From: an uncultured Pelagibacteraceae bacterium
GTDB taxonomy: Bacteria > Pseudomonadota > Alphaproteobacteria > Pelagibacterales > Pelagibacteraceae
Direction: 5' to 3'
DNA length: 64,000 nt
Assembly (NCBI GenBank): GCA_902517865.1
Contig: CABYDT010000001.1
Location: 145,001 to 209,000 of the forward strand
Part shown: positions 36,365-53,377 of the stretch, in pieces
Numbering within the stretch: the stretch's first letter is position 1
Layout of the letters: every line of letters begins with the position of its first letter
Notes under the pieces: model-generated
Database searches by the model: none
Told to the model about the DNA's origin: nothing
What the model saw: only the letters and a program-made list of their open reading frames with translations
Translations under genes and position numbers: made by a program

Positions 36365-36395
36365 GTCGTGACACTCAAAGTCACTTAATAATGGT

Positions 36396-36424
36396 TTGTA
36401 ACATTATTGTAATAATTCCGACAT
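36396..36424 (+). promoter_or_regulatory. Candidate PhoB binding site upstream of arsC
   Basis: Three 7-bp elements repeat at an exact 11-bp period: TTGTAAC (36396), TTGTAAT (36407) and CCGACAT (36418). Each matches the PhoB half-site CTGTCAT/CTGTAAC at five or six positions. The site is only 11 bases before the arsC ATG, so the transcript would be very short-leadered. It argues for the downstream start of arsC. Confidence 0.4.
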
Positions 36425-36435
36425 ATTTTTTAAAG

Positions 36436-36852
36436 ATGAAAAAAGTTTTATTTTTATGTACAGGAAATTCAGCAAGATCTATTATATCAGAATGTCTATT
36501 AAATCAAATGGGTAAAAATAGATATCAAGCATTTAGTGCTGGATCAAAACCAGTGGGTAAAGTGAATCCCTATTCAATAAAAATTTTAGAAAAAAATAAT
36601 ATAAATTATGAAAAGGTTTCAAGTAAAAGCTGGGATGATTTTTCAGATACAAAGTTTGATACTATTGTTACAGTTTGTAACAATGCAGCAAATGAAACAT
36701 GCCCTGTTTATCCTGGATCGCCAAATAAATTACATTGGGATCTAGAGGATCCTGCTGCTTTTAATGGAAATGATGAAGAGAAATTAAATCAATTTCAAAG
36801 AACGTTTGATCAAATTCATAAATATATTAAAAAAGAATTTATAAATAAATGA
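36436..36852 (+). CDS. arsC: Arsenate reductase, low-molecular-weight phosphatase type
   Basis: Reduces arsenate to arsenite using thioredoxin or glutaredoxin. The phosphatase-like P-loop near the N-terminus is LCTGNSARS (Cys, then Arg). The later VCNNAANETCPVYPG supplies the cysteines used for the disulfide relay, and the DP acid is in WDLEDPAAF. It has 138 residues from the ATG at 36436; an ATG at 36391 would add 15 residues that run through the putative regulatory repeats. It overlaps the aquaporin gene by 4 bases. Confidence 0.92.
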   Translation: MKKVLFLCTGNSARSIISECLLNQMGKNRYQAFSAGSKPVGKVNPYSIKILEKNNINYEKVSSKSWDDFSDTKFDTIVTVCNNAANETCPVYPGSPNKLHWDLEDPAAFNGNDEEKLNQFQRTFDQIHKYIKKEFINK

Positions 36853-37547: not shown

Positions 37548-37760
37548 ATGAAAAAAAAAATAAAAAAACAAGAGAATAAAAAACACAAAGTTTTAAAAAA
37601 AGTAAACAAACTTAAAAGTAAGATTATAGCTCAAGAAAAAAAGATTTCTAAAATTGAAGCGAAAATAGCTAAACTAGAAAAAAAGGCAGCTGAAAAAAAA
37701 AACAAAAAACTAGCTAAGTCAGCTTCTGCACAAACATTTTCAACACAATTAAATAATTAA
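37548..37760 (+). CDS. Small lysine-rich coiled-coil protein
   Basis: A 70-residue, very basic protein made almost entirely of Lys, Ala, Ile and Glu with a heptad-like pattern through residues 15-55, then a Ser/Thr/Gln tail. A clear GGGGG Shine-Dalgarno sequence lies 5-9 bases upstream of the ATG, stronger than for most genes here, which supports real and possibly abundant expression. It may be a nucleoid- or nucleic-acid-associated protein; no family was recognised. It ends 3 bases before the convergent ppx. Confidence 0.65.
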   Translation: MKKKIKKQENKKHKVLKKVNKLKSKIIAQEKKISKIEAKIAKLEKKAAEKKNKKLAKSASAQTFSTQLNN

Positions 37761-39266: not shown

Positions 39267-41360
39267 TTAAATTTTTAAATTCATTATTTCTTCTTTGATA
39301 ATTGATTTGCCCTGACCAGACAAGCTTGGATTTTTCATGAAGTATTCATGTGCTGAAAATACGTCGTCACCTGCTTTTAATATTTTATAATATTTTTTAT
39401 CTTTTAACTCCCAGCTCGACTTAATATCTTTAAGATTTGCCATCATGATTTGGTCTAAAACCTGGGCGTGTACTGTTTCATTTTTTATTGGCAACATAAT
39501 CTCTAATCTGCGATCCAAATTTCGCGGCATTAAATCAGCTGATGAAATAAAAACTTTATTTTGTCTTGATGGCATTTCTTTACCATTCGCAAAACAGTAA
39601 ATTCTTGAGTGCTCTAAAAATCTTCCTACAATACTTTTAACATAAATATTTTCTGACATATTTTTTATTCCAGGTTTTAAGCAACAAATTCCTCTGACAA
39701 ATAAATGAATTTTAACACCATGTTTTGAAGCTAAATAAAATCTATCTATTATTTTAGGATCTACTAATGAATTCATTTTTGCCCAAATTTCTGCGGGCTT
39801 TCCAGATTTTGCGTTTTCAATTTCATTGTCAATTAAGTCATTTAATTTTGGTCTCAAAAATCTTGGGGCAAGTATCACATTTTCTAATTCTCCAGGATCT
39901 CCATAACCAGTTACAAAATTAAAAAACTTTTCAATATCATTTGCATAATCGGGGTCTGCACTAAATAATGACAGGTCAGTATAAATTTTTGCGTTTATGG
40001 GATGGTAGTTTCCTGTTCCTATATGAACGTATTTATTTAAGACTCCATTTTCTAACCGCACAACCAAACTAGATTTGGCATGTGTTTTTAAATGAACAAA
40101 ACCATAAACAACCTGAACACCTGATCTTTCTAAAGATTTTGCTAAACTTATATTTGCTTCTTCATCAAATCTTGCTTTGATTTCAACTATTGCTGTGACT
40201 GACTTTCCGTTTTCTGCGGCAATTTTGAGAGCTTTTACAATTGGTGAGTCTAAAGTTGTTCTATACAAAGTCTGTTTAATTGCTTGAACATTTGGATCAT
40301 TTACCGCCTGATTTAAAAATTCTATAACTGCATCAAAAGTTTCATAAGGATGATGTACAATCATATCCTTAGATTTAATTGCTTTAAAATAATCACCATT
40401 AAATTGATTTACTCTTTCAACTTGTCTTGAATTAAATTTTTTGAAATAGAACTCTTTTTTGCCTTGTTCAAGGATTTGTGAGATTTCGTAAGTTCCAACA
40501 AACTCCTCAATCTCATCCACTGTATCTGGGTCTGCTTTAATTTTTTTTATCAAGAATTTTTTTAAATGACGTTCAGATCCTTTCCTTAATTCCAACCTCA
40601 CAATTCTGCCTCTTTTTCTTTTTTTCAAAGCTTTCTCATAGAAAACCACCAGATCTTCCGCCTCATCTTCAACTTCAATATCGCTATCTCTTGTTACACG
40701 TGCAGATATATAATTTTTGATTTCATAACCTGGAAAAAGATTTGAGCCATATGAGCTTACGGTTTCTTCTAATGATACATAATTTTTTACAGCTTCAATG
40801 TTGCTGACATTGTAAAATCGCTTTAAATTTTTAGGTAAAATAATAATTGAATAAATTGATCTTTTTTTTCCTTTTTTTTGCATTTCCATAAGCAAAAAGT
40901 GTCCTTGGTTAAAAAGAAATGGAAAGGGATGCGAAGGATCAATGGCTTGAGGTGTTAAGACTGGTGCTATATTAGTATTGAAAATATTTAAAAGATTTGA
41001 TTTCTCATCCTGATTAATTTCTACAAAACTTTTAAAAAATATTCTTTGTTTTGATAAATCTTTTTTTAATTTTGACCAAATATAATTTGATTTTTTTAAT
41101 AACTCGGATGATTTGATTTTTATTTTTTTCAATTGCTCCTTAGGAGATAATCCATCTATTGTTTCGTGTTTAATTTTTTCTTTAATCTGTGCATATACAC
41201 CTGCCACACGAACCATATAAAATTCATCTAAGTTATTAGAGGCAATTGATAAAAATCTTAGTCTTTCAAAAAGTGGCAGATCAGTATTGCCTGCTTCGGA
41301 TAATACCCTTGAATTAAATTCTAACCAGGATAGCTCCCTATTATTATATCTTTTTGTCAT
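39267..41360 (-). CDS. ppk: Polyphosphate kinase 1
   Basis: Polymerises the ATP gamma-phosphate into polyphosphate. The N-terminal domain opens with NRELSWLEFNSRVLSEA. The catalytic phospholipase-D-like domains carry HLKTHAKSSLVVR and YVHIGTGNYHP, with the autophosphorylated His region, and LEHSRIYCFANG with SADLMPRNLDRRLE. It has 697 residues, full length. It heads the ppk-ppx pair and is divergent from sixA. Confidence 0.97.
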   Translation of the reverse strand: MTKRYNNRELSWLEFNSRVLSEAGNTDLPLFERLRFLSIASNNLDEFYMVRVAGVYAQIKEKIKHETIDGLSPKEQLKKIKIKSSELLKKSNYIWSKLKKDLSKQRIFFKSFVEINQDEKSNLLNIFNTNIAPVLTPQAIDPSHPFPFLFNQGHFLLMEMQKKGKKRSIYSIIILPKNLKRFYNVSNIEAVKNYVSLEETVSSYGSNLFPGYEIKNYISARVTRDSDIEVEDEAEDLVVFYEKALKKRKRGRIVRLELRKGSERHLKKFLIKKIKADPDTVDEIEEFVGTYEISQILEQGKKEFYFKKFNSRQVERVNQFNGDYFKAIKSKDMIVHHPYETFDAVIEFLNQAVNDPNVQAIKQTLYRTTLDSPIVKALKIAAENGKSVTAIVEIKARFDEEANISLAKSLERSGVQVVYGFVHLKTHAKSSLVVRLENGVLNKYVHIGTGNYHPINAKIYTDLSLFSADPDYANDIEKFFNFVTGYGDPGELENVILAPRFLRPKLNDLIDNEIENAKSGKPAEIWAKMNSLVDPKIIDRFYLASKHGVKIHLFVRGICCLKPGIKNMSENIYVKSIVGRFLEHSRIYCFANGKEMPSRQNKVFISSADLMPRNLDRRLEIMLPIKNETVHAQVLDQIMMANLKDIKSSWELKDKKYYKILKAGDDVFSAHEYFMKNPSLSGQGKSIIKEEIMNLKI

Positions 41361-41393
41361 AAATTTTTAATTATTTAATAATATAATCTAGAA

Positions 41394-41900
41394 ATGTTAA
41401 TTTTATATGTCATGAGACACGCAAAATCTAGTTGGGAAAATCCTGATTTATCTGACTATCAAAGACCACTTAATAAAAGAGGAAGACATAATGCAAAATT
41501 GATGAAAAAAATTATGAAAAATAAGGTAATGTTTTTTGATTTTGCTTATATTTCTGGGTCTCAAAGAACAATGGAGACATTTAAATATATAAAAGATTTA
41601 AATTTAAGGAAAAAAAAAATAAAAAAAGATCATTATTTGGCTTCACCAAAAATTTTGCTCGAAACAATTCAGTCTACAAAGGATAAGTATAAAAGTATTC
41701 TAATTCTAAATCACGAACCAGCAGTAAAAAATTTAACAATGCAATTATGTTCAGATTTAAGTAATGAGGGAAAAATTTTAATCCAAAAATTTAGCACTGC
41801 AGGCATTGCAACAATTATTTTTAAAAAAAGATCTTGGTCAGAAATAAAATTTGGTGATGGTTTGCTTGATGAATTTATTAAACCTAAAGATTTTTACTAA
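41394..41900 (+). CDS. SixA-type phosphohistidine phosphatase
   Basis: Histidine phosphatase superfamily protein of 168 residues. The RHG-type catalytic motif is VMRHAKSSWENPDLSDYQRPLNKRG, with the second His in LILNHEPAV. SixA removes phosphate from histidine-phosphorylated proteins in E. coli; the target here is not known. Its position between polyphosphate and Pho genes suggests a role in phosphate signalling, by context only. The end overlaps the convergent phoB by 4 bases. Confidence 0.85.
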   Translation: MLILYVMRHAKSSWENPDLSDYQRPLNKRGRHNAKLMKKIMKNKVMFFDFAYISGSQRTMETFKYIKDLNLRKKKIKKDHYLASPKILLETIQSTKDKYKSILILNHEPAVKNLTMQLCSDLSNEGKILIQKFSTAGIATIIFKKRSWSEIKFGDGLLDEFIKPKDFY

Positions 41901-42580
41901 CCATCTATTGAATAGCCGACTGATCGTACAGTTCTTATCAAATCACATTGGTTATCTATATTAATAGCTTTCCTTAATCTTCTAATATGAACATCAACAG
42001 TACGAGTTTCTACATAAATATCATTACCCCAAACATGATTCAGTAACTGCTCCCTAGAGTAAACGCGTTTTGGATTTTTGATAAAAAAGTTTAACAAATT
42101 ATATTCGGTCGGACCTAATTTAATTTCTTTACCGCCTCGATAAACACGTCTTGCCAAACGATCAATTTTAATATCCTTAAATATAACTATGTCTTCAGTT
42201 AAGGATGGCTTCACTCTTTTTAATAATGCTCGAATTCGTAGATTAAGCTCTTTTGTACTAAATGGTTTTGTAACGTAATCATCGGCTCCTGTCTCAAACC
42301 CTCTAATTTTATCAGACTCTTCTGCTTTTGCAGTTAACATGATTACAGGTATTGATTTCAGTTTACTGTCCTTTTTAATTTGATTACAAATTTCAATTCC
42401 TGATAAATCTGGTAGCATCCAATCAAGTAGAACTAGATCTGGATTATTTTTTTTTATAAAAGTAAGTCCGTCTTCTCCATTTTCTGATATATGAACTTTG
42501 AAACCTTCTTTTTCTAAATTATACTGAATTAAAGTCGATATTGGTTTTTCGTCTTCAACAACTATTATCGTTGCATTCAT
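41897..42580 (-). CDS. phoB: Phosphate regulon response regulator PhoB
   Basis: Two-component transcription factor activated by PhoR. The receiver domain has acidic residues near VVEDEKP, phospho-acceptor Asp53 in LVLLDWMLPD, and the Lys in DDYVTKPFS. The OmpR-type winged helix has PTEYNLLNFFIKNPKRVYSREQLLNHVWG and VDVHIRRLRKAI. It has 227 residues. It is the last gene of the phoR...phoB run, which is unusual because phoB and phoR are more often adjacent. Confidence 0.95.
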   Translation of the reverse strand: MNATIIVVEDEKPISTLIQYNLEKEGFKVHISENGEDGLTFIKKNNPDLVLLDWMLPDLSGIEICNQIKKDSKLKSIPVIMLTAKAEESDKIRGFETGADDYVTKPFSTKELNLRIRALLKRVKPSLTEDIVIFKDIKIDRLARRVYRGGKEIKLGPTEYNLLNFFIKNPKRVYSREQLLNHVWGNDIYVETRTVDVHIRRLRKAINIDNQCDLIRTVRSVGYSIDG

Positions 42581-47873: not shown

Positions 47874-47902
47874 GTGGCACTAATATTAAACAAATATTAC
47901 AG
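47874..47902 (-). promoter_or_regulatory. Pho box upstream of pstS
   Basis: Reading the minus strand, three 7-bp elements stand at an 11-bp period: CTGTAAT, GTTTAAT and GTGCCAC. The first matches CTGTCAT at six of seven bases and the third matches CTGTCAC at five. It lies 55 bases before pstS, where PhoB control is expected. Confidence 0.6.
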
Positions 47903-47916
47903 TTTTGTAAAAAAGC

Positions 47917-53325: not shown

Positions 53326-53354
53326 ATCATAATTATGTTACAGAAGTGTTAAAA
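53326..53354 (-). promoter_or_regulatory. Candidate Pho box upstream of plcP
   Basis: Reading the minus strand, three 7-bp elements recur at 11-bp spacing: TTTTAAC, CTGTAAC and TTATGAT. The middle one matches CTGTAAC fully. It lies 25 bases before the plcP start in the 76-base region shared with the divergent lipid kinase gene, so it could serve both. Confidence 0.5.
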
Positions 53355-53377
53355 TTTTTTTAAAAAAAAAATAATAT

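Follow-up and report, generated by a model that had tools for sequence, protein, structure and literature searches.

The window analysed here is a stretch of 64,000 nucleotides from a SAR11 (Pelagibacteraceae) draft genome of 962,553 bases, whose completeness is estimated at 85.6%. It contains an arsC gene followed by an aquaporin gene (aqp), and on their 3' side the order continues with ppx, ppk, sixA, phoB, phoU, pstB, pstA, pstC, pstS, phoR and plcP-agt. On the 5' side, a gcrA gene on the same strand as arsC ends 71 nt upstream, and gcrA is also found upstream in several relatives. A putative short ORF (37548-37760, 70 aa, lysine-rich) is located between the aquaporin gene and the convergent ppx. 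The features that are relevant for the following analysis are:

36396-36402, plus strand: Pho-box unit 1, TTGTAAC (followed by ATTA), first half-site in the match to the pstS-trained matrix
36407-36413, plus strand: Pho-box unit 2, TTGTAAT (followed by AATT), 11 bp after unit 1, half-site in the matrix match
36418-36424, plus strand: degenerate unit 3, CCGACAT (followed by ATTT), its last base is also the first of the predicted -10, a feature shared with SAR11 pstS promoters
36424-36429, plus strand: predicted -10 element, TATTTT, 10 nt after unit 2; pstS promoters carry a -10-like hexamer at equal spacing
36436-36852, plus strand: arsC, arsenate reductase of the low-molecular-weight phosphatase type (thioredoxin-like), 138 aa; PF01451, 64 bits
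36849-37499, plus strand: aqp, aquaporin/major intrinsic protein, predicted arsenite exit channel; PF00230, 100 bits
41354-41387, plus strand: Pho-box-like site 40 nt before sixA (41394), rank 4, seen again in genome G030
41897-42580, minus strand: phoB, predicted activator of arsC-aqp; TIGR02154 (PhoB equivalog), 327.8 bits against a cut-off of 296.2
47880-47913, minus strand: Pho box of pstS, reference site held out from training, rank 1 in window and genome
48542-49771, minus strand: phoR, partner sensor kinase adjoining pst; TIGR02966, 290.8 bits, below the cut-off of 334.2
53332-53365, minus strand: Pho box of plcP-agt (lipid renovation operon), reference site, rank 2 in window and genome

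The 4-base overlap of the two genes that had been noted in the preliminary description is real: an ATGA is shared by the aqp start codon (36849-36851) and the arsC stop codon (TGA, 36850-36852). An in-frame ATG at 36391 was rejected as the arsC start in favor of 36436, because homologues begin with MKKVLFLC; other relatives do not have the upstream ATG. The encoded protein carries both features of pI258-type ArsC proteins, the CX5R loop and two redox cysteines, and Cys8 (in CTGNSAR), Cys81 and Cys89 are invariant in 22 SAR11 ArsC sequences. The best homologue named arsenate reductase is 1jl3 (E 5e-19), and arsenate reductases make up most of the close solved structures. The NCBIfam arsenate-reductase models scored below their cut-offs, including the pI258-type model TIGR02691 (99.2 bits against a curated cut-off of 174.3), and the protein is therefore named an ArsC-like relative rather than an equivalog, with a predicted arsenate-reductase activity. 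The aquaporin belongs to the MIP family and contains two NPA motifs (AHFNPAVT and FANPAVSIAR); its pairing with arsC suggests that it is permeable to arsenite.

The region 5' of arsC-aqp has the layout TTGTAAC-4-TTGTAAT-4-CCGACA-TATTTT. Three Pho-box-like units with an 11-bp period had been proposed at 36396, 36407 and 36418; these positions stand and units 1 and 2 are good half-sites, while unit 3 is weak. The region thus contains at least two 7-bp half-sites in the 11-bp register that is expected of a Pho regulon member, and the distance of 10 nt from unit 2 to the -10-like hexamer is the same in the arsC and pstS sites. Both PhoB and PhoR are encoded in the window, with the PhoR model scoring somewhat below its cut-off. 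The E. coli phoA and pstS promoters have a matching arrangement of box, 10 nt and -10. At arsC, box, 10 nt, -10, approximately 6 nt and the ATG follow each other, an arrangement from which the transcript is predicted to be leaderless or nearly so, whereas a long leader is predicted for pstS.

A box model was built from 27 pstS loci of the family, whose promoters contain three 11-bp units with the consensus TTGTAACAAAANTGTAACATTTNTGTAATAATAA and a -10 that begins within the last unit. For training of the 34-nt matrix, the genome of the window and its near-copies were left out, so that only pstS promoters from other SAR11 genomes contributed. In the 64-kb window the highest scores were obtained for pstS (28.3), plcP (26.0), arsC (18.9) and sixA (16.7), followed by the next site at 12.2, which places the arsC site third among 127,934 scored positions; it is weaker than the pstS site. 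Dinucleotide shuffles yielded 0.005 matches per window at or above the arsC score for the full matrix, 0.08 without the -10 part and 0.8 for the two half-sites alone. The half-sites alone are therefore marginal and insufficient as proof, and the significance stems from the whole 34-nt arrangement. As the matrix spans the -10 and AT-rich spacers, part of the score reflects general promoter-like sequence. With a sequence-only covariance model of the pstS boxes, the three best sites of the entire draft genome were, in this order, those of pstS, plcP and arsC (E = 0.03 for arsC). Two other genome matches (L164, L165), next to genes that are not clearly connected to phosphate, were regarded as background. 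A scan of the window with the strict E. coli-type pattern CTGTCAT-N4-CTGTCAT, allowing up to three mismatches, gave matches at chance level and did not find the arsC site, so that a generic scan would miss this box. The site before sixA (phosphohistidine phosphatase; 41354-41393) has an arsC-like geometry, which suggests another leaderless PhoB target.

A scan of homologous upstream regions in SAR11 genomes showed that close relatives retain the 11-bp register, the loss of which would have spoken against the preliminary interpretation. The box has a fixed position in genera g1, g9, g12 and g6, beginning 39-42 nt ahead of the arsC ATG although the flanks do not align, and in the g9, g12 and g6 relatives the half-site matching unit 2 ends 21-24 nt before the ATG. 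A comparison of loci L002 and L007 gave 94% identity over the half-site region but 33% over the 40 nt in front of it. In genera g2, g4 and g5 the operon has the form DUF6552-arsC-aqp and the box lies in front of its first gene, DUF6552. A forward box scoring at least 8.8 was found in 37 of 46 loci, and in 35 of these no other 350-nt stretch of the window scored as high; near-copies are frequent among the loci, and the number of independent cases is nearer to seven genera. One locus (L117) has no box, and one g4 subgroup has only a reverse-oriented box that faces a divergent phnZ-like phosphonate oxygenase gene (L092, L095 and L123, with G034 also of this type). Across eleven regions from ten genomes of six genera, most matches above 14 precede pstS, plcP, arsC or DUF6552, ppx, sixA or phnZ, and a few lie elsewhere in the phosphate island. 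DUF6552, a small membrane protein of 73-79 aa that opens the Pho-box-led operon in three genera (L099, L118, L126 and others), is a candidate for a new arsenic or phosphate gene. In several g6 genomes (L111, L112, L113, L116) a gene for a Fur-family regulator is divergent from arsC.

The distance between arsC and pstS is approximately 6-13 kb in most genera; in G007 the two genes are far apart and the box is still kept. Among genomes at least 90% complete, the two genes tend to occur together: a hand tally gave 86 with both genes, 12 with arsC only, 21 with pstS only and 21 with neither (Fisher p ~5e-6, uncorrected for relatedness). In the same hand tally a pstS match was missing in 12 of 98 near-complete arsC genomes, which counts against a direct Pho reading. 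In G030, proteins of the pst-ppk-plcP island (L193, 2530-19427) are mostly 93-99% identical to those of the window; its GcrA is 76% identical and the sequence upstream of its arsC belongs to a different type. This pattern looks as if the phosphate island had recombined between genera, with a breakpoint close to the arsC start.

The preliminary description had also noted the absence of an ArsR gene, and none was found among the ORFs neighboring arsC-aqp. The locus thus lacks the ArsR gene in or near the operon that defines a classical ArsR-controlled ars operon. In profile searches with HTH_5 and HTH_20, neither the draft genome nor any of ten relatives (several with single-contig assemblies) yielded a match over the Pfam cut-off, and a few weak HTH matches fell below it; all 14 control genomes gave matches over the cut-off. 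In Roseobacter SK209-2-6 an ArsR-type HTH is fused to ArsC and followed by an arsC-aqp pair, and the comparison with the SAR11 box indicates that the pair is common to both and its control differs. The aquaporin of the window is 44% identical to the one in this Roseobacter arsR/arsC-arsC-aqp cluster. The ArsC tree places g6 nearer to Roseobacter than to the remaining SAR11; the support is modest (85/81, 92/63), and the grouping hints at a separate recruitment of arsC.

A SAR11 pair of LMWPc_ArsC and aquaporin genes, in the same order as in the window, has been described in HTCC7211 by Giovannoni and colleagues (PMC6426599). There, arsC rose 2.3-fold on phosphate starvation and did not rise with dimethylarsinic acid; the pair is present in warm-water ecotypes and inversely related to phosphate, with arsC becoming more frequent as phosphate falls. 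Together with the top genome-wide rank of the box, its retention where flanks differ and the lack of ArsR-family matches in 11 genomes, these data support the earlier proposal that arsC-aqp belongs to the phosphate-starvation regulon and that ArsR control has been replaced. As the pair shares its promoter signature with the high-affinity phosphate transporter, it is most likely switched on by phosphate hunger and not by arsenic. Very probably, arsC-aqp forms a transcription unit that PhoB activates directly. Under falling phosphate, PhoR would phosphorylate PhoB, which would bind the TTGTAAC/TTGTAAT repeats (36396-36413) in place of a -35 element and recruit RNA polymerase to the -10 TATTTT at 36424, with transcription beginning at, or a few bases from, the arsC ATG. 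Arsenate would enter with phosphate via the co-induced Pst transporter and be reduced by ArsC, and uncharged arsenite would diffuse out through the aquaporin. The cell would thereby read low phosphate as a sign of a high arsenate/phosphate ratio and need no arsenic sensor, and no additional induction by arsenite would be expected. PhoB binding, the start site and the enzyme and channel activities are the predicted elements of this scheme.

An ordinary constitutive sigma-70 promoter (-35 TTGTAA/TTTAAC, -10 TATTTT/CATAAT), whose likeness to a Pho box is accidental in an AT-rich genome, is a quite improbable alternative. The chance frequency of the half-sites alone and the g9 and g12 sequences, which can be read as -35 and -10 elements spaced by about 16, are compatible with it; the rarity of the full arrangement in shuffled sequence, the nature of the other top matches (pstS, plcP and sixA rather than housekeeping genes) and the box at the operon start in g2, g4 and g5 argue against it. 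Slightly less probable still is a transcription of arsC-aqp mainly by read-through from gcrA with a vestigial box. The same-strand gcrA lies close upstream and no strong terminator is obvious between the two genes, but the box is kept where an adjacent gcrA was not found (G023, G007) and where flanks diverged.

Dual control by phosphate and arsenic, with an arsenite sensor encoded elsewhere, is unlikely, yet it is the rival to which we give the most weight. The incompleteness of the draft genome, the weak HTH matches below the cut-off and the ArsR-PhoB crosstalk in Agrobacterium (PMC3834237) speak for it, whereas the profile searches over the cut-off in this genome and its ten relatives speak against it. 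The ArsC homologue might also be a protein tyrosine phosphatase in phosphate signaling rather than an arsenate reductase, given its Pfam family (LMWPc), its scores below the NCBIfam cut-offs and the presence of 'WzB' and 'GlpF' in the HIMB59 phosphate island (PMC10734472). This possibility is about as improbable as the read-through, in view of the invariant catalytic and redox cysteines, the related arsenate-reductase structures, the fixed pairing with an aquaporin and the higher arsenate tolerance of HTCC7211, which has the gene, compared with HTCC1062, which does not (PMC6426599). Independently of this question, 'WzB' and 'GlpF' in the HIMB59 ppx-sixA-ppk-pst island may be alternative names for the same arsC-aquaporin pair.

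SAR11 are the most abundant ocean bacteria and dominate surface oceans with scarce phosphate and high arsenate/phosphate ratios. If direct PhoB activation holds, an ArsR-less, PhoB-driven arsC-aqp unit would account for the ability of a streamlined cell to deal with arsenate through a single sensor, and arsC transcripts would mark phosphate stress and not arsenic exposure. The SAR11 Pho-box model also predicts other regulon members. As a broader generalization, to which we give somewhat less than even weight, SAR11 as a whole may have abandoned arsenic sensing and made arsenate detoxification purely anticipatory within the PhoB regulon; this arrangement could have two or more origins, and several genera may use a leaderless PhoB promoter with box, -10 and start codon within approximately 40 bases. 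The rise of arsC on phosphate starvation is already published (PMC6426599), so the induction itself is not new, and the 2.3-fold change in HTCC7211 may stem from a different promoter layout with a reverse phnZ-type box. No mention of the Pho regulon or of ArsR was found in the main text of that study. The papers found on Pho boxes together with SAR11 concern lipids and Trichodesmium, and a search of mostly open-access literature found no report of an arsC Pho box; the Pho-box basis of arsC, its conservation and the predicted leaderless promoter seem to be unreported.

Compared with the HTCC7211 module (PMC6426599), the present analysis adds the cis-element, its conservation, the absence of ArsR and the DUF6552 form of the operon. 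As in the aqpS-arsC ars operon of S. meliloti and the Roseobacter arsR/arsC-arsC-aqp cluster, an aquaporin beside arsC takes the place of the ArsB pump, but unlike in Roseobacter, where the pair follows an ArsC with a fused ArsR-type domain, the present locus has a Pho box and no ArsR. A phosphate two-component system acting on arsenic genes is known from the PhoB-dependent regulation of arsenite oxidase in Halomonas HAL1 (PMC4563254) and, according to work cited in PMC3834237, from Agrobacterium. Those systems concern arsenite oxidation by aio, whereas the SAR11 genes would provide for reduction and exit and are located inside the pst island. A further parallel is the Pho-box-led plcP-agt operon of marine heterotrophs (PMC4796936), which shares the regulator type, the island and the box motif with arsC-aqp but serves lipid renovation instead of arsenic handling.
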